Source: Pseudomonadota bacterium
Lineage (GTDB): Bacteria; Pseudomonadota; Gammaproteobacteria; Burkholderiales; Thiobacillaceae
Assembly: GCA_021791235.1 (NCBI GenBank)
Contig: JAJYXA010000543.1
Span: forward strand, 1 to 11,352
Length of the DNA stretch: 11,352 nt
Reading direction: 5' to 3'
The position numbers were made by a program, and so were the translations under genes. Positions 1-7,464 of the stretch are shown one piece after another; position 1 is the first letter of the stretch, and every line of letters begins with the position of its first letter. Under the pieces are notes generated by a model, which was given only the letters and a program-made list of their open reading frames with translations, had not been told where the DNA came from and did not search any database.

Positions 1-2222
1 CGCACCAAAGCCAGGATGGCATCCGGATTGTGGCCGTAATCGGCGATCAGCGTCGCACCGCGGTAACTGAACACATTGAAGCGGCCGGGCACGGTCTCCA
101 CGTCCCCGACGAAGGAATTCAGGCCGACGCGAATCACGTTCCAGTCCAGACCCAGCGCCCACGCGGCCGCAACGGATGCCATCGCATTATCGACCTGGAA
201 ACTGATCGTTCCCTTGCGCGTGAGCGGCACGTCGTCGAGTGCGATCCGCTGCGCAACGGCGCCGCGCTCGGCGGCGACGATGGCATTGTCCTCGACATAG
301 ACGACGCGTCTTCCCCTTGCATGGTGCGTCGCCATCACCGGATGGTGGGGATCGGCGGCGAAGAACGTAACCGCGCCAGGGCAGTTCTCGATCATCTTGG
401 CCACGTCGCGGTCGGCGGCGTTGAGCACGGCCATGCCGTCGGCTGCGATGTTCTGCACGATGACGCGCTTCAACACGGCGAGATCCTCGACCGTGGCGAT
501 ATAGCTCAGTCCGAGATGGTCGCCCTCACCGATGTTGGTGACCACGGCCACCTTGCAGCGGTCGAACGCGAGACCCTCGCGCAACAGGCCGCCGCGGGCC
601 GTCTCGAACACCGCCGCGTCGACCTCGGGGTGCATGAGCACGTTGCGCGCGCTCTTGGGACCGGAGCAATCACCGCTTTCGATGCGGCGTCCGCCAACAT
701 AGATGCCGTCGGTGCAGGTCATGCCGGTGCGCAATCCGCTGCAGGATAGGATATGCGCGATCAGTCGCACCGTCGTGGTCTTGCCGTTGGTGCCGGTCAC
801 CGCCACCACCGGAATGCGGCCGTCCTCGCCCTCCGCGTACATGTCGGCGATAACGGCTTCGCCCACTGCGTGGGCTTTGCCGGCTGAGGGCATGAGATGC
901 ATGCGCAGGCCGGGCGCAGCATTCACCTCGACCACGGCGCCGCCCTGCTCCTCCAGCGGCTGTTGCAGGGTTTCGCACACCATGTCGACGCCGGCGATGT
1001 CCAGACCGATCATTTGCGCCGCCGCTACGGCCTGCGCCTGCACTTCCGGATGCACGTCGTCGGTCACGTCGGTGGCGGTGCCGCCGGTGGACAGATTGGC
1101 ATTGTTGCGCAGAACAATGCGCGTACCCTGCGCCGGCACCGATGTGGCGCTGAGCCCCTGCAGTTCCAGGCGGCGCAAGGCCACTTCGTCGAAGCGGATT
1201 TTCGTCAGCGAGGTGGCGTGCCCTACGCCGCGGCGCGGATCCCGATTGACCTCTTCGACCAGCTGTTGCACCGTGTGTACGCCATCGCCTATGACCAGAG
1301 GCGGTTCGCGGCGCGCCGCCGCGACGAGTTTCCTGCCCACCACCAGCAGGCGGAAATCGTGGCCCGGCACGAAGCGTTCCACCAGGACGGTCGAGCCGTA
1401 ATCCGCTGCGGTGGCGAAGGCCGCCGCCAATTGTTCTCGCGTCGTGACGTTGACCGTGACGCCTTTACCCTGGCTGCCGTCCTGAGGTTTGACCACCACC
1501 GCAGCGCCGATTTCCTGCATGGCCTTCCACGCGTCCTCAAAGTCGGCGACAGGGCGGCCCTGTGGAATCGGTACGCCGGCCGCCTCGATCAGACGCTTGG
1601 TGAGCGTCTTGTCCTGCGCGATCGATTCCGCGATGGCGCTGGTGCGGTCGATTTCTGCGGCCTGGATGCGGCGCTGGCGGCTGCCCCAGCCGAACTGCAC
1701 CAGGCTGCCCTTGGTGAGGCGGCGATAGGGAATCCCGCGCGCGACGGCGGCGTGGACGATCGCTCCGGTGCTGGGCCCCAGGCGCTCGTCCGCGTCGAGT
1801 TCGCGCAGGCGCGCGAGCGCATCGGCCAGGTCGAACGGCGCATCGGCCATGGCTGCCAGGCACAGTTGCTCTGCGAGCGTGAGCGCCAGCCTGCCTACGG
1901 CCTCCTCCGAATATTCCACGGCCACCTGGAATACGCAGCGCTCGATGGTTTGCGTCACCCGCGTGAACGTCACCGGGCAACCGGCCTGCGCCTGCAGGCC
2001 GAGTGCGGCGAACGCGAGCGCATGGGCGAGAGAAATATCTCCGACCTGGCCGATCAGCCGCATAGAACCGATATTGGGGAAGCGGGCGCGCAAGCGCTCC
2101 TCGAAGCCGGGCAGTCCGGACAGCGCACACTCTGCCTCGCGGCAGTGAACCACTGCCTCGATCGCGGTATTGCGGCTCCACAGGTTGGGGCCGCGCAAGG
2201 CTCGGATTCTTGAAACGTCCAT
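1..2222 (-). CDS. cphA: Cyanophycin synthetase CphA (3' end beyond window)
   Basis: ATP-dependent cytosolic polymerase that adds Asp to the polyaspartate backbone and then Arg to each Asp side chain. ATG at 2222 opens with MDVSRIRALRGPNLWS, a typical CphA start. 740 residues are visible; I estimate 100-150 are missing. Domain order: N-domain (about 1-160); ATP-grasp for Asp addition, with KPQDGSQGKGV at 245-255, NLSTGGTATD at 376-385 and metal-binding EVNAAPG at 432-438; Mur-ligase domain for Arg addition, with P-loop GTNGKTTT at 477-484, ETARGG at 540-545, TNIGEGDHLG at 562-571 and DYGHNPDA at 728-735. Both ligase sites therefore look intact. The N-domain lacks the HxxEH motif of self-priming synthetases: the aligned stretch reads HALAF (67-71). 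It should therefore depend on primers from elsewhere (inference). It lies 21 bases downstream of its paralogue, so the two are probably one operon. No strong ribosome binding site is seen. Confidence 0.96.
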   Translation of the reverse strand, partial: MDVSRIRALRGPNLWSRNTAIEAVVHCREAECALSGLPGFEERLRARFPNIGSMRLIGQVGDISLAHALAFAALGLQAQAGCPVTFTRVTQTIERCVFQVAVEYSEEAVGRLALTLAEQLCLAAMADAPFDLADALARLRELDADERLGPSTGAIVHAAVARGIPYRRLTKGSLVQFGWGSRQRRIQAAEIDRTSAIAESIAQDKTLTKRLIEAAGVPIPQGRPVADFEDAWKAMQEIGAAVVVKPQDGSQGKGVTVNVTTREQLAAAFATAADYGSTVLVERFVPGHDFRLLVVGRKLVAAARREPPLVIGDGVHTVQQLVEEVNRDPRRGVGHATSLTKIRFDEVALRRLELQGLSATSVPAQGTRIVLRNNANLSTGGTATDVTDDVHPEVQAQAVAAAQMIGLDIAGVDMVCETLQQPLEEQGGAVVEVNAAPGLRMHLMPSAGKAHAVGEAVIADMYAEGEDGRIPVVAVTGTNGKTTTVRLIAHILSCSGLRTGMTCTDGIYVGGRRIESGDCSGPKSARNVLMHPEVDAAVFETARGGLLREGLAFDRCKVAVVTNIGEGDHLGLSYIATVEDLAVLKRVIVQNIAADGMAVLNAADRDVAKMIENCPGAVTFFAADPHHPVMATHHARGRRVVYVEDNAIVAAERGAVAQRIALDDVPLTRKGTISFQVDNAMASVAAAWALGLDWNVIRVGLNSFVGDVETVPGRFNVFSYRGATLIADYGHNPDAILALV

Positions 2223-2243
2223 CAGTTCGTCTTTGGCCGGCTG

Positions 2244-4463
2244 CTACAGGTTGACCGCTTTGCGCGGCAGGCTTTGCACAGGCGGTTTGCCCCTGCAATC
2301 GTGCTCGAACGTTTCAATGCCGACGCGCGTGATGTCGAGCGCAATGTCCAGCGCCACAGCCGCACCCGCCGCTGCGAGCACGCTCGCAGCGGCATCGGCG
2401 TCGCAGCGTCCATCGCTCAATTGCATGGCGAATGCGGGCAGTTCGACCAGCATGCTTTCAACGGGGCCATGCGCCAGCTGGACGCGGTTGTCGCGCAGGA
2501 AAACTGCGCGGCCGCCGCGGGCGCGCTGCTTGACGATCGCCGGCAGATCGGGATCGAGGCCGTAGAGTATCGTGTCGCCGTCGCACAGGTCAGCCATGCG
2601 CATGACAAAAGGATCGGCCGCATTCAATACGGCCGCGCCTTCGGGCAGGACGATGTCCACTTGGGTGCGCAGAACCTGAAACACCTGCTCGGCATCGTGG
2701 ATCTCGTAGCGGCCAAGCGCCTCGACACTATCGACGTCGGTGACGATGCCGACCAGGCAGCGGTCGTAGGCCACGCCCTGGCCGAGAATGACTTCGGCGC
2801 CGTTTTCGAATACGGCAGCTTCCAGCGATTTGTTGATGAGCAGGCGCTGCCCGGCAGTCCAGCTGGCGCAATCGTTCTTGTCGACCAGCCTGCAGTCGAG
2901 GTACAGACCGTCACGGCAAGCCAGTCCGACCGATTTGCCCGAGAGATGGATCAGCCAGGCGACGAGCCGGGCGATCAATGAAGTGCCGCGCGTGCCGGCC
3001 ACGCCGACGATAGGGATGCGGCCGCTGTCGTTTTGCGGAAAAAGACTGTCCACGATGGCCTGCCCGACCGGGCGCGGCCTGCCTTTGGCCGGCTTCAGGT
3101 GCATCAGCAGACCTGGGCCGGCGTTGACCTCGACCACCGCACCGCGCTGCTCGGCTAGGGGGCGCGAGATGTCCTCGGCGACGATGTCCACGCCGGCGAT
3201 GTCCAGGCCGACGACGCGCGCGGCCAATATGGCCACGGCTGCAACCTCGGGGTGTACTTCATCCGTGACTTCGTCGGCGAGATTGCCGTAGCGGATGACC
3301 AGGACTTTCTTGCCGGCGGGCGGAATCGAATCGGGAGCGTAGCCTTGCCGCTGCAGTTCCATGACGACTGCCGGTTCGCGCTCCAGCCGCACCGGCTCGA
3401 GCGGAAAGGATTCGTCCTCGCCACAGCGCGGATCGCTGTTGATCTGGCTGTCGATCAGCTCGACGATGGTCGAACTGCCGTCGCCGGTGACCCAGGCGGT
3501 CTCGCCGCGCGAGGCCGCGACCAGCTGCTTTCCCACGACCAGCAAGCGATGTTCGACGCCGGGAATGGAACGTTCGACCAGAACCTCGCTGCCCTCGGCA
3601 AGCGCCAACTGGTAGGCGCGCTCGACTTGCTCGCGCGAAGTCAATTCCAGCGACACGCCGCGCGCATGATTGGCATCGATCGGCTTGACCGCTACCGGCA
3701 GACCGATTTCCTCTGCCGCTTCCCAGGCATCTTCCGGGCCGCTCACGACACGCCCTTCGGGCACCGGCACGCCGCAGGCGGCAAGCAGGCTTTTGGTCAG
3801 GTCCTTGTCGCGTGAAATGCCTTCGGCGATAGCCGAAGTCGCGTCGGTTTCTGCGGTCCAGATACGCCGCTGCCGGCAGCCGTAGCCGATCTGTACCAGG
3901 TTGCCCTCGTTGAGGCGTATCCAGGGAATGTGGCGTTCAGTCGCCGCATCGACAATGCTCTCGGTGCTGGGGCCGAGGCAAAGTGAATCGGCCAGTTCGC
4001 GCAGCTTTGCTATCGCACTCGGCACGTCGAACGAGGTGTCGTTGATGGCCGCCATGACCAGGTCGCGGGCCGCCTCGAGGCAGGCACGCGTAACCTGTTC
4101 CTGGCGCGAGCGCACGACGACGCGATAGATCCCGCGCTTGGAGGTCTGACGCGCCTTGCCGAAGCCGGTGCGCTGACCGGCCAGGTTCTGCAATTCAAGG
4201 GCGACGTGTTCCAGGATATGGCCGGCCCAGGTGCCGTCGCGCAAGCGTTGCAGGAAACCGCCGTATTCGCCGACGCTGCAGCGGTGCTCGATCAGCGAAG
4301 GCAGCCAGGAGGACAGGCGCTCATAAAAGCCGGGGATACTATTGGAGGGGGCATCCTCCAGGTCTCCGATATCGACCCAGGCCTCGATGATCGGGCGGTA
4401 GGTCCAGAGGTTTGGTCCGCGCAGCGGGGTTAAACGCAAGAATTCGATATTTTTATATTTCAC
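2244..4463 (-). CDS. cphA': Second cyanophycin synthetase-like protein, CphA' (CphA2-like, degenerate Mur ligase)
   Basis: Paralogue of the downstream CphA, 739 residues. I chose GTG at 4463 because homology begins there (VKYKNIEFLRLTPLRGPNLW). The frame is open further upstream, but that extension resembles nothing in CphA. An AGG triplet lies about 9 bases before the GTG. The N-domain (1-160) keeps GHILEHVALELQ, giving HxxEH at 82-86, with Cys62 upstream. The ATP-grasp keeps K260 and EVNAGPG (445-451), but its glycine loop reads DANHARG (263-269), and about six residues equal to STGGTA are missing near 395. The Mur domain has lost key motifs: the P-loop reads GTRGTS (490-495, no Lys), ETARGG is replaced by ENGAEV, and TN..DHLG by TDVDSVEALG. 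The protein ends before the Mur C-terminal lobe with its DYGHNP motif. Arg ligation from free Arg should be lost. Cyanobacterial CphA2, which polymerises beta-Asp-Arg dipeptides, has a similarly shortened Mur domain. The true activity here is unknown; primer-making or a regulatory role are alternatives. Confidence 0.93.
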   Translation of the reverse strand: MKYKNIEFLRLTPLRGPNLWTYRPIIEAWVDIGDLEDAPSNSIPGFYERLSSWLPSLIEHRCSVGEYGGFLQRLRDGTWAGHILEHVALELQNLAGQRTGFGKARQTSKRGIYRVVVRSRQEQVTRACLEAARDLVMAAINDTSFDVPSAIAKLRELADSLCLGPSTESIVDAATERHIPWIRLNEGNLVQIGYGCRQRRIWTAETDATSAIAEGISRDKDLTKSLLAACGVPVPEGRVVSGPEDAWEAAEEIGLPVAVKPIDANHARGVSLELTSREQVERAYQLALAEGSEVLVERSIPGVEHRLLVVGKQLVAASRGETAWVTGDGSSTIVELIDSQINSDPRCGEDESFPLEPVRLEREPAVVMELQRQGYAPDSIPPAGKKVLVIRYGNLADEVTDEVHPEVAAVAILAARVVGLDIAGVDIVAEDISRPLAEQRGAVVEVNAGPGLLMHLKPAKGRPRPVGQAIVDSLFPQNDSGRIPIVGVAGTRGTSLIARLVAWLIHLSGKSVGLACRDGLYLDCRLVDKNDCASWTAGQRLLINKSLEAAVFENGAEVILGQGVAYDRCLVGIVTDVDSVEALGRYEIHDAEQVFQVLRTQVDIVLPEGAAVLNAADPFVMRMADLCDGDTILYGLDPDLPAIVKQRARGGRAVFLRDNRVQLAHGPVESMLVELPAFAMQLSDGRCDADAAASVLAAAGAAVALDIALDITRVGIETFEHDCRGKPPVQSLPRKAVNL

Positions 4464-4639: not shown

Positions 4640-4690
4640 TTGCACCGCAGCAATAGAGCCGCAGCCCTTGATTGCGGGTGCATTTCATAG
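4640..4690 (+). CDS. Possible 16-codon leader peptide ahead of the ABC transporter
   Basis: TTG at 4640, spaced 5 bases from AAAGGAG, starts a frame encoding MHRSNRAAALDCGCIS. It stops at TAG (4688-4690), immediately followed in the same frame by the ATG of the transporter at 4691. Such an arrangement would allow reinitiation or translational coupling. Alternatively the frame is the remnant of a longer N-terminus interrupted by TAG, or pure chance. No run of codons for one amino acid points to classical attenuation, although two Arg codons and one Asp codon are present. Evidence is positional only. Confidence 0.25.
   Translation: MHRSNRAAALDCGCIS
4641..4682 (+). promoter_or_regulatory. Inverted repeat in the 5' leader of the ABC operon
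   Basis: TGCACC (4641-4646) can pair with GGTGCA (4677-4682), and GCAAT (4650-4654) with ATTGC (4671-4675). This gives an 11-bp stem with a 3/1 internal loop and a 16-base apical loop. It begins at the putative leader start codon and ends 8 bases before the transporter ATG, so folding could hinder initiation there and leader translation could open it. There is no U-tract, so it is not a terminator. Regulation is inferred only. Confidence 0.35.
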
Positions 4691-6994
4691 ATGATTTCCG
4701 CTAACAATCATGGAGTTGATCAGCTTTCCGCTTTGCCCGACGCCTGGCGGGCGGAAATCGAGGCAGGTCTGGGGGCAGACGAGAGCCTTCAAGTCTGGCT
4801 GGAAACCGATCTGGACACCGGGTTGCGCTATTCCCGGGGGCTGGTGGCGCTGACGAATCGGCGCCTGCTCGCGCTTCAGGCAGAGGAGCCGAAACGGCGG
4901 GAGTGGACTTTCCAGCCGGAACTCAGCCTGTTGCACCACGATCATGCCGGGGTCGGCACGCTGGAATTGCGTGACGCGGCGTCCTGTCTCGCAACCTGGC
5001 GTTACACCATCGGTCAGAACCCGGCTGCGCAGCGGCTGTTTGACGAATTCGAGCGCCAGCTCGAGAGCCGCCTTTCCGGCCGCCCCGTCGAGCGGCCTCC
5101 CGAAGAGCGTTGCCCCAAGTGCAACACCCTGCTCGAACCCGGCCAGGAGGAATGCCCGGTCTGCGCGCGCGAAATCCATGCGCCGCCGTCGACGCGCACC
5201 TTGCTGCGGCTGGGACGTTTCGCCAGGCCCTATCGCTGGCCTTTGTTCTGGGGCTTTATCCTCACGCTGATTTCGACGGCCGCCGCCATGGTGCCGCCCT
5301 ACCTGACCATGCCGCTGATGGACGACGTGCTGATTCCCTACCAGAGCGGCAAACCCATCGATGCCGGCCTGGTCGTGCTGTTGCTGGGCGGCCTGCTCGG
5401 CGCCGCCGTGCTCGCCTGGGGCTTGGGATGGGTGAAAACCTATATCCTTTCGCTCGTCGCGGAGCATATCGGCTCGGACTTGCGCACCGCCACTTTCGAA
5501 CATCTGATGCGGCTGTCGCTCGAATACTACGGCGGCAAACGCACCGGTGATTTGATGGCGCGCATCGGCTCGGAATCGGACCGCATTTGCCAGTTCCTTT
5601 CGGTGCACGTGCTCGAGTTCGCCACCGACATGCTCATGATCGCGATGACCGCGGTCATACTCTTTTCTGTCGACCCCTGGCTCGCGCTGGTCACCCTGCT
5701 GCCCCTGCCCTTCATCGCCTGGATGATCCAATTGGTGCGCCACCGGCTGCGCATCGGCTTCGAGAAGGCCGACCGCATCTGGTCCGAAATCTCCAATGTG
5801 CTGGCCGACACCATCCCCGGCATCCGCGTGGTGAAGGCCTTCGCCCAGGAGAACCGCGAAACCCAGCGCTTCCGCGCCGCGAACGCAATCAATTTGACGG
5901 TGAACGACCGCGTCAACCGCATCTGGTCGCTGTTCTCGCCGACGGTGACGCTGCTGACCGAAGTCGGCCTGCTCGTCGTCTGGGCCTTCGGCATCTGGCA
6001 GGTGTCGCGCGATCAGATCACCGTGGGCGTATTGACGGCTTTTCTCGCCTATATCACGCGCTTCTATACACGCCTGGATTCCATGAGCCGCATCGTCTCC
6101 ACCACGCAGCGCGCCGCCACCGGCGCGAAGCGCCTGTTCGACATACTCGATCATGTCTCCAGCGTGCCCGACCCGGCGCGTCCGGTGCGCCTGGGCGAGG
6201 TAAAAGGACGCATCGAGATTCGCGACGTCGGCTTTCGCTACGGCAACCGCTCGGTGCTGCGCGGCGTCGATCTCACCGTCGAGCCAGGCGAGATGATCGG
6301 CCTGGTCGGCCACAGCGGCTCGGGCAAGACTACGCTGGTGAACCTCATCTGCCGCTTCTACGACGTAACCGAGGGCGCTATCCGCCTCGACGGCGCCGAC
6401 ATCCGCTCGCTCGCGGTCGCCGATTACAGGCGCAACATCGGCCTGGTGCTGCAGGAACCTTTCCTCTTTTTCGGCACTGTTGCCGACAACATCGCCTACG
6501 GGAAACCGGATGCGTCACGCCAGCAAATCATCGATGCCGCGCGCGCCGCGCACGCGCACGAGTTCATCCTGCGCCTGCCGCAGGGCTACGATTCTCTGGT
6601 CGGCGAGCGCGGTCAGGGGCTGTCCGGCGGCGAACGCCAGCGCATCTCCATTGCCCGCGCCCTGCTCATCGACCCGCATATGCTCATCCTCGACGAGGCC
6701 ACTTCCTCGGTGGATACCGAGACGGAGACCGAAATCCAGAAGGCGCTCGACAACCTGGTGCGCGGGCGCACCACCATCGCCATTGCCCACCGCCTATCGA
6801 CGCTGCGGCGCGCCAACCGCCTGGTGGTGCTCGACCGCGGCCGCATCGTCGAGACGGGCAACCACGACGAGTTGATGGCGCGCGAAGGCGCCTACTACCG
6901 CCTGTACGAGGCCCAGGCGCGCAACATCGACGTGGACCTCGACGAGACAGCCGAGCCAGGATGGAAGATGGAACACAAGGCGAAGGACGAATAA
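4691..6994 (+). CDS. Cyanophycin-associated ABC transporter, exporter-type permease/ATPase fusion with zinc-ribbon N-terminus
   Basis: Inner-membrane half-transporter of 767 residues, expected to work as a dimer. Start is ATG 4691, because an in-frame TAG lies directly before it. Residues 1-130 form a soluble region whose GLVALTNRRLLAL (50-62) recalls bacterial PH-like domains (weak call). A zinc ribbon follows, with Cys at 141, 144, 155 and 158. The type IV exporter membrane domain spans about 180-470, with helices near 184-206, 226-248, 306-328, 330-346 and 418-438. The ATPase has Walker A GHSGSGKTT (540-548), Q-loop Gln588, signature LSGGERQ (644-650), Walker B LILDEAT (665-671) and His700; all catalytic residues are present. 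The extra N-terminus is unlike MsbA-type exporters, which are near 580 residues. It diverges from the cphA pair and overlaps the DUF1854 gene, matching a family I recall as cyanophycin-metabolism-associated. The substrate is unknown; a peptide or amino acid linked to the polymer is a guess. Confidence 0.93.
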   Translation: MISANNHGVDQLSALPDAWRAEIEAGLGADESLQVWLETDLDTGLRYSRGLVALTNRRLLALQAEEPKRREWTFQPELSLLHHDHAGVGTLELRDAASCLATWRYTIGQNPAAQRLFDEFERQLESRLSGRPVERPPEERCPKCNTLLEPGQEECPVCAREIHAPPSTRTLLRLGRFARPYRWPLFWGFILTLISTAAAMVPPYLTMPLMDDVLIPYQSGKPIDAGLVVLLLGGLLGAAVLAWGLGWVKTYILSLVAEHIGSDLRTATFEHLMRLSLEYYGGKRTGDLMARIGSESDRICQFLSVHVLEFATDMLMIAMTAVILFSVDPWLALVTLLPLPFIAWMIQLVRHRLRIGFEKADRIWSEISNVLADTIPGIRVVKAFAQENRETQRFRAANAINLTVNDRVNRIWSLFSPTVTLLTEVGLLVVWAFGIWQVSRDQITVGVLTAFLAYITRFYTRLDSMSRIVSTTQRAATGAKRLFDILDHVSSVPDPARPVRLGEVKGRIEIRDVGFRYGNRSVLRGVDLTVEPGEMIGLVGHSGSGKTTLVNLICRFYDVTEGAIRLDGADIRSLAVADYRRNIGLVLQEPFLFFGTVADNIAYGKPDASRQQIIDAARAAHAHEFILRLPQGYDSLVGERGQGLSGGERQRISIARALLIDPHMLILDEATSSVDTETETEIQKALDNLVRGRTTIAIAHRLSTLRRANRLVVLDRGRIVETGNHDELMAREGAYYRLYEAQARNIDVDLDETAEPGWKMEHKAKDE

Positions 6995-7464
6995 TGCAGG
7001 CGCCGGATTTCCAACTAAAGCGCGACGCCTTCGGCCGGCTGGTATTGACCGCCGCGGACGGCAGCGTGTGCGAAGGCGTGGTACCGGTACGCGCCTTTCC
7101 CATCAGCGCGCCCGGCGAAGGCATCGCGCTGGTCGGCCCCGACGGCCACGAAGCCGCATGGATCGAGCGCCTGGACCAGCTGCCGCAGGCGCTGCGGCAG
7201 CTGGTGGAGGAGGAACTCGCCCGGCGCGAATTCGTGCCGGAGATTCGTCGCATCCACGAGGTCTCGAGCTTCGCCACGCCCAGCACCTGGAAAATCGACA
7301 CCGACCGCGGCGAAACCACGCTGATTCTGTGGGGAGAGGAGGACATCCGCCGGCTCGGCAAGTCCGGCCTGCTGATCGAGGACAGCCACGGCATTCATTT
7401 CCTGGTGCGCGATATCAACCGGCTCGACCGGGCCAGCCGCCGGCTGCTCGACCGATTCCTCTGA
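6994..7464 (+). CDS. DUF1854 protein, cyanophycin-metabolism-associated
   Basis: Soluble protein of 156 residues with no signal peptide or membrane segment. The ATG at 6994 shares its A with the stop TAA (6992-6994) of the ABC gene, and AAGGA at 6983-6987 lies 6 bases upstream. The two genes are thus very likely translated in a coupled way and may form a complex. The sequence fits the DUF1854 family: an N-terminal beta-rich part (FQLKRDAFGRLVLTAADG), a central stretch around IRRIHEVSSFATPSTW (85-100), then TTLILWGEEDIRRLG and a C-terminal segment LLIEDSHGIHFLVRD (126-140). No catalytic motif is recognisable. As I recall, this family is annotated beside cyanophycin genes, which agrees with this locus. 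Its biochemical role is not known; an accessory or regulatory subunit of the adjoining transporter is the simplest inference. Confidence 0.88.
   Translation: MQAPDFQLKRDAFGRLVLTAADGSVCEGVVPVRAFPISAPGEGIALVGPDGHEAAWIERLDQLPQALRQLVEEELARREFVPEIRRIHEVSSFATPSTWKIDTDRGETTLILWGEEDIRRLGKSGLLIEDSHGIHFLVRDINRLDRASRRLLDRFL

Follow-up and report, generated by a model that had tools for sequence, protein, structure and literature searches.

Why should a bacterium carry two cyanophycin synthetase genes side by side, each of them without sites that the other has kept? The question is raised by a stretch of 11,352 nucleotides from a member of the Thiobacillaceae, referred to below as the window, in which a polymerising cyanophycin synthetase (CphA) lies downstream of a paralogue (CphA'). 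The obvious point of reference is SuCphA1, in which, according to the accessible text of PMC9262961, a Cx19HxxEH site in the N domain acts as a slow endo-cyanophycinase that probably binds zinc; it makes primers, its products being mostly tetramer pieces. SuCphA1 with dead G and M domains, or its isolated N domain, enables primer-free synthesis by the motif-less TmCphA1 in trans (PMC9262961, same text), and this engineered pair is a precedent for an N-site acting on a separate polymerase. Here we ask which sites the two natural neighbours have kept and how far their division extends, and weigh the reading that they are, as we think rather probable, the two halves of a divided three-site synthetase in which CphA' primes CphA in trans.

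Two neighbouring genes with reciprocal losses

CphA starts 21 nt downstream of CphA' and is truncated by the start of the window (Table 1). CphA scores 963.5 bits against the TIGR02068 equivalog, above the curated cut-off of 850; CphA' scores 704.7 bits, below that cut-off, and passes only the broader NF010623 (1021 against a cut-off of 877). The domain search found no Peptidase_S51 domain in CphA'. Its N domain carries C62-x19-H82-ILE-H86, the Cx19HxxEH of the SuCphA1 N domain, and the contrast drawn in the sequence-only reading between HALAF in CphA and HILEH in CphA' is borne out at residues 67-71 and 82-86, respectively. The Mur losses which that reading ascribed to CphA' are likewise confirmed: comparison of GTRGTS with the GTNGKT of CphA indicates that the P-loop Lys has been lost, and the Mur Asp-His and the C-terminal lobe are gone. 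That list was incomplete, however, as the ATP-grasp part of CphA' is also affected, with STGG deleted and Arg458 replaced. The accompanying claim that the motifs of CphA are intact holds for the STGG loop, Arg458, GTNGKT and the Asp-His, all of which are present, with one exception in the ATP-grasp site, which is not fully canonical because His267 is replaced by Gln.

Table 1 Features of the window and their coordinates
Feature	Position	Strand	Remarks
CphA' (cyanophycin synthetase paralogue)	2244..4463	-	739 aa, GTG start at 4463
Longer open frame of CphA'	begins at 4688	-	
CphA' N-domain metallopeptidase-like site, Cys62 to His86 (C-x19-HILEH)	4206..4280	-	
CphA' residues 392-400, place of the deleted G-domain STGG	3264..3290	-	Asn394 equivalent just before is kept
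CphA' Leu453 replacing Arg458 (aspartate recognition)	3105..3107	-	
CphA' degenerate Mur-ligase P-loop GTRGTS (490-495)	2979..2996	-	no Lys
CphA, polymerising cyanophycin synthetase	1..2222	-	871 aa; last ~390 coding nt beyond the window; complete gene is L005 2604-5216, contig C131
CphA HALAF (67-71), place of the lost N-site	2010..2024	-	
CphA intact Mur-ligase P-loop GTNGKT (477-482)	777..794	-	
ABC transporter	4691..6994	+	NCBIfam NF052233, 1381 bits; divergent from CphA'
DUF1854 protein	6994..7464	+	NF052234 match

The N-site is partitioned throughout the order

We surveyed 399 genomes of the order, which we take to be Burkholderiales, for CphA-like matches at E <= 1e-100; at most two candidates were scored per genome, so that third copies could escape here as in the class and planctomycete searches, and all candidates were scored in follow-up searches of the order and class genomes. 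Among the matches listed, 145 genomes have a CphA-like match, 137 of them with CphA' and 8 with a solitary CphA only. After exclusion of the two genomes in which CphA' is in pieces (G160 and G378), 135 CphA' loci were read, of which 131 reach the adjacent CphA. The presence, loss and conservation of site residues, their linkage and their co-occurrence are read from the sequences of these loci. CphA' lies directly upstream of CphA and on the same strand in all 131 pairs; the other four loci (L072, L108, L162 and L169) end at or near a contig end, and in one of the genomes concerned, G029, where the contig ends about 500 nt past CphA', no CphA was found.

The motif Cx19HxxEH is present in 135 of the 135 aligned CphA' and in none of the 131 adjacent CphA, a count that includes the split-frame CphA of L061, which is absent from the 130 aligned sequences. 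The association that had been suggested as a check, HxxEH lost from one gene and present in the other, thus holds in every adjacent pair of the order, and even with looser spacing (13-25 residues) the motif is found in 0/130 paired CphA. Traces of it persist: seven of the 130 retain H79, E82 and H83, minus only the Cys part, and four have a Cys 15-25 residues earlier, while none combines the Cys with the other three. In CphA', equivalents of SuCphA1 H57, C59, F67, R70, H79, E82, H83, E87 and Y110 are present in all 135 sequences, and the positions of S60, E90, R100 and T101 vary; R100A is harmless in SuCphA1 (PMC9262961, accessible text). The four motif residues are all invariant against a background of 23 invariant columns among the 145 of the N domain (p 5e-4), and so are nine of the 13 listed site residues (p 7e-6). 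The 131 pairs represent one inherited arrangement and not 131 events. Among the non-planctomycete named loci the motif occurs in 65 of 67 CphA' (the other two are cut) and in none of 61 complete downstream CphA; these loci overlap the survey sample and are not extra evidence.

All eight solitary CphA of the order carry the motif and keep the nine residues, except for one with Leu in place of F67. When all candidates were scored, these eight genomes gave no further CphA-like match, except that five of them have one to the ATP-grasp region at 30-32% (E 1e-22 to 1e-29). Directly downstream of the solitary CphA in L273-L280 there is a second CphA-related frame of about 450-495 aa with a weak match (137-180 bits), perhaps the Mur half alone.

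Two observations concern individual lineages. In the window's own family (f1) a CphA match is found, among the matches listed, in only two of 15 genomes, and this patchiness is as expected for loss or transfer. In Accumulibacter sp. MAG bin_122, CphA' and CphA form one in-frame protein up to the contig end (L208:3966-6833), the sole such frame among the ORFs scanned, which reflects either a true fusion of the genes, loss of a stop codon or faulty assembly.

CphA' has lost the aspartate loop and, repeatedly, the Mur site

In the portion of PMC9427784 available, the substrate aspartate lies beside Ser396, the large-loop Asn394 and Arg458, His267 and Arg309 are catalytic, and Lys499 of the Mur P-loop is essential. 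The STGG that holds Ser396 is absent from 135/135 CphA' and kept in 130/130 CphA; Arg458 is absent from 134/134 CphA', with Leu in 129, and is Arg in 130/130 CphA. Other residues of the site are retained in CphA', namely Asn394 in 127 of 135, His267 in 133 and Arg309 in 135. With both STGG and Arg458 lost, CphA' should be unable to add aspartate or to elongate the polymer, even where its Mur site survives. A missing 'J-loop' in the CphA' of Ralstonia eutropha was reportedly noted by Adames in 2013. In the paired CphA the position of His267 is Gln in 128 of 130, and catalytic detail may consequently differ in the clade that they form with planctomycete sequences; Gln at this position is also common to most of the tabulated three-site planctomycete CphA.

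An intact Mur site, counted as such when the P-loop Lys and the Asp-His are present and the tail exceeds 60 residues (that of L075 is short, at 92), is found in 11 of 135 CphA', which belong, among the matches listed, to families f4, f13, f27, f30, f46 and f50. On a tree of the CphA' N and G domains its loss requires six changes, or 15 losses if loss is irreversible, a figure that tree error and transfer could inflate. The Mur site of CphA' thus appears to have decayed repeatedly, and the N-site never in these 135 proteins. All pairs of the order share two losses, the N-site in CphA and the aspartate loop of the G domain in CphA'; loss of the Mur site from CphA' is secondary and happened repeatedly.

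Divergence follows the same division. Over the same 130 genomes the mean amino-acid distance is 0.284 in CphA' versus 0.450 in CphA for the N-site region, 0.502 versus 0.252 for the Mur core and 0.328 versus 0.286 for the G domain. We also set dN per domain against the dS of the gene, taken over G plus M. In 56 within-genus comparisons, to which no genus contributed more than six and which are not independent of one another, the medians for N, G and M were 0.148, 0.161 and 0.236 in CphA' and 0.229, 0.125 and 0.106 in CphA. Relaxation therefore looks reciprocal between the two proteins, and no domain looks unconstrained. By keeping constrained G and M domains CphA' would be more than a peptidase.

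The division extends beyond the order

In the class sample 20 of 370 genomes matched, 17 of them outside the order, with two candidates scored per genome. Two genomes of family f128 (G586 and G672) have CphA'/CphA pairs that divide the sites in the same way; for a third genome (G476) the sequence read reaches the upstream partner in its C-terminal part only, the N end of CphA' lying outside. The motif is carried by 13 of the 13 solitary CphA of this sample if G599 is set apart, and the ten that were tabulated have all seven residues shown. G599 (L308) encodes a divergent, motif-less CphA relative with no known partner.

A G-domain tree (71 rows, SH-aLRT support, unrooted) joins beta-proteobacterial CphA' and planctomycete paralogues in one clade (support 99), and groups the paired CphA with planctomycete tandem second genes (89), beside a three-site planctomycete CphA (90); L297 was left out of the second tree. 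CphA' and CphA thus appear as separate clades, each of them present in Planctomycetota. The sequence-only reading had proposed that a three-site enzyme was duplicated and its activities then divided; the activities do look divided, but the unrooted tree speaks against a recent tandem duplication.

Correlated loss of the motif, the other expectation of that reading, recurs in Planctomycetota as comparable trade-offs, albeit in few genomes. In the tandem pairs of G1157, G1105 and G1000 the N-site is in the first gene only, and in G775 CphA has Asn for C59 and Trp for R70 and the paralogue retains the site. The reverse is seen in G774, G769, G768 and G765, where CphA alone has the N-site and the paralogue has lost it. 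G1137 has the site in one of two short copies and G784 has it in both, so that the site need not be limited to one copy. None of the ten planctomycete genomes with two copies read lacks it from both. Of the three short copies that G768 has, this count covers L305 and L306, which are both without the motif, and the planctomycete set leaves outside the second copies of G764, G766, G767, G771, G772, G773 and G776. On the G-domain tree, at least two losses of the N-site fall in CphA and one in CphA', and in every case the partner has retained it. In G1137 the Mur P-loop is degenerate in both copies (L313 and L314), one of which keeps the N-site and the aspartate loop; a third copy was possibly missed, or the system is decaying.

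A proposed synthetase split over two genes

The division of the sites is solid and extends past the window. We propose that CphA would add Asp through its G domain and Arg through its M domain and would be unable to cut the polymer. CphA' would be unable to add Asp and usually also Arg, its N domain acting as a Zn-dependent endo-cyanophycinase; by cutting nascent cyanophycin it would release short segments, and these segments would prime CphA in trans. The G and M folds of CphA' would be kept as a scaffold, probably for polymer binding or for assembly with CphA. Three elements of this proposal are steps that we infer, namely that CphA' is catalytically active, that its main task is priming and that it forms a physical complex with CphA. 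CphA' likely cuts cyanophycin, and to regard priming as its main task, over turnover or the processing of an exported product, seems a reasonable choice.

Several observations count against the split. S60 and E90, which contact the polymer in SuCphA1, vary in CphA'; G599 and TmCphA1 are motif-less relatives without a known partner; seven paired CphA still have H79, E82 and H83; G784 carries the N-site in both copies; the G and M domains of CphA' are still constrained; the 131 pairs amount to a single inherited arrangement; and some pair genomes also encode a protein above the cyanophycinase cut-off (see below). In addition, the two homologues of Ralstonia eutropha gave no cyanophycin, either in the wild type or when overexpressed (Adames 2013, as cited in the accessible text of the reviews PMC11362209 and PMC8560796).

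Cyanophycinases, linked genes and other explanations

Typical cyanophycinases are scarce where the pair occurs. In a count that leaves out G565, a protein scoring above the curated cut-off of TIGR02069 is encoded in 12 of 136 pair genomes of the order (seven over 200 bits), in none of three f128 genomes and not in G599, versus 20 of 20 solitary-CphA proteobacteria (8 from the order, 12 from the class). The window's genome has no match to PF03575 (Peptidase_S51), and a cyanophycinase is recognisable, according to the available text of PMC10206079, in only 2.8% of 903 beta-proteobacterial CphA1 genomes, for which unknown isozymes were suggested. These figures lend some weight to the possible, if unlikely, explanation that CphA' is mainly the missing cyanophycinase, its N-site mobilising stored polymer and primer supply being a by-product. 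The known N domain, however, is slow and releases mostly tetramer pieces, and among the matches listed 20 of 22 planctomycetes of the CphA/CphA' clade pass the curated cut-off and by this measure possess the family, as do 37 of 38 single-match planctomycetes, whose kind was inferred from distance and not from sequences. The curated cut-off thus does not separate the two groups. A line at 200 bits, drawn after the scores had been seen, is passed by 37/38 single-match and 0/22 clade planctomycetes (best 167.7), again among the matches listed. Since none of the 22 exceeds it whether the N-site is in CphA or in CphA', low scores may simply follow the clade.

Two further genes travel with the pair. 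Relatives of the ABC transporter are found in 126 of the 135 CphA' loci, accompanied by DUF1854 in 125; NCBIfam names the NF052233 and NF052234 families 'cyanophycin metabolism-associated'. All 18 pair genomes of the order that were tested encode DUF1854 (eight of them without it in the stretch read), as do 3/3 f128 genomes and 11/12 clade planctomycetes. It is lacking in 21/21 solitary-CphA proteobacteria, in 9/9 single-match planctomycetes, in 13/13 genomes of the order without a CphA match and in G599, so that 76 of 77 genomes agree with a distribution tied to the CphA/CphA' clade. The CphA' paralogues of G775 and G784 each adjoin an ABC relative (267 and 191 bits, respectively), and in both genomes a DUF1854 gene lies beside CphA on another contig. 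Comparison of the DUF1854 protein model with the PDB gave no convincing match, and the domain is not named in the open-access literature searched. At its N terminus the ABC transporter carries an extension whose CxxC...CxxC stretch resembles a zinc ribbon.

The shared transporter and DUF1854 protein, together with the few typical cyanophycinases, suggest that CphA' may turn polymer over in addition to priming. A bolder proposal, which we put forward as speculation that is probably wrong, makes the pair the core of a second cyanophycin economy: CphA would build the polymer; CphA', as the missing beta-proteobacterial endo-cyanophycinase, would cleave it into defined oligomers; and these would be moved or handled by the ABC transporter and the DUF1854 protein encoded alongside. 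If so, cells would process and perhaps export the product instead of only storing it, and this would account both for the rarity of CphB and for the failure to detect polymer in Ralstonia eutropha.

It is very unlikely, in our view, that CphA' is catalytically silent and stabilises or regulates CphA in a mixed oligomer, its metal site being structural. The constraint still acting on its G and M folds would fit such a role, as would a structural model that is confident for most of the protein (G-domain residues 206-216 and 439-450 apart) and the single CphA'-CphA frame of the Accumulibacter MAG; yet Glu85 (the general base in SuCphA1), together with Arg73 and Tyr113, which contact the substrate, shows the same invariance as the metal ligands, beyond what a structural zinc would require. 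That the N-site of CphA' is a relic of its ancestry and serves no purpose today is hardly credible: the split arose early, and shared ancestry therefore inflates the counts, but the Mur site decayed repeatedly in the same 135 proteins in which nine N-site residues are unchanged.

Implications and comparison with known systems

If CphA and CphA' are indeed halves of one divided enzyme, the primer-making site of a polymerase can move to a separate and separately evolving partner. The split would also offer candidate, testable answers to two questions, namely why a recognisable cyanophycinase is missing from most beta-proteobacterial genomes with CphA1 (PMC10206079, available text) and why the Ralstonia eutropha homologues gave no cyanophycin (PMC11362209 and PMC8560796, accessible text), and it predicts in practice that a paired CphA is best assayed together with its CphA'.

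The pair shares the three-domain fold of CphA1 as known from SuCphA1, whose Cx19HxxEH is found also in CphA' and whose M motifs and aspartate loop are found also in CphA. Unlike SuCphA1, it divides the three sites over two adjacent genes, and CphA' is without the aspartate loop and usually without the Mur site. Neighbouring cphA copies have been described before: in non-cyanobacteria (Fuser and Steinbuchel 2007, cited in PMC10687191), in Accumulibacter, where they are evenly expressed (PMC10687191), and in Sideroxydans, with adjacent CphA1/CphA2 and no cyanophycinase (PMC5178258), each according to the text accessible. The copies of non-cyanobacteria, Sideroxydans and Ralstonia eutropha very likely correspond to the pair described here. 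The accessible text of these sources speaks of two copies or of two synthetases and does not mention the reciprocal loss of the N-site; nor does the open-access literature searched, which consisted mostly of titles and abstract starts, with subscription papers and preprints outside it, and novelty is thus unproven.

TmCphA1 resembles the paired CphA in being primer-dependent with a motif-less N domain and has been studied alone. Cyanobacterial CphA2 is a CphA relative described, in the sources accessible, with a single active site; it is without the N-domain motif, whereas CphA' has it. CphB-type cyanophycinases (S51, TIGR02069) would likewise cut the cyanophycin backbone, but CphA', unlike CphB, has no S51 domain and would do so through an endo-acting metal site.
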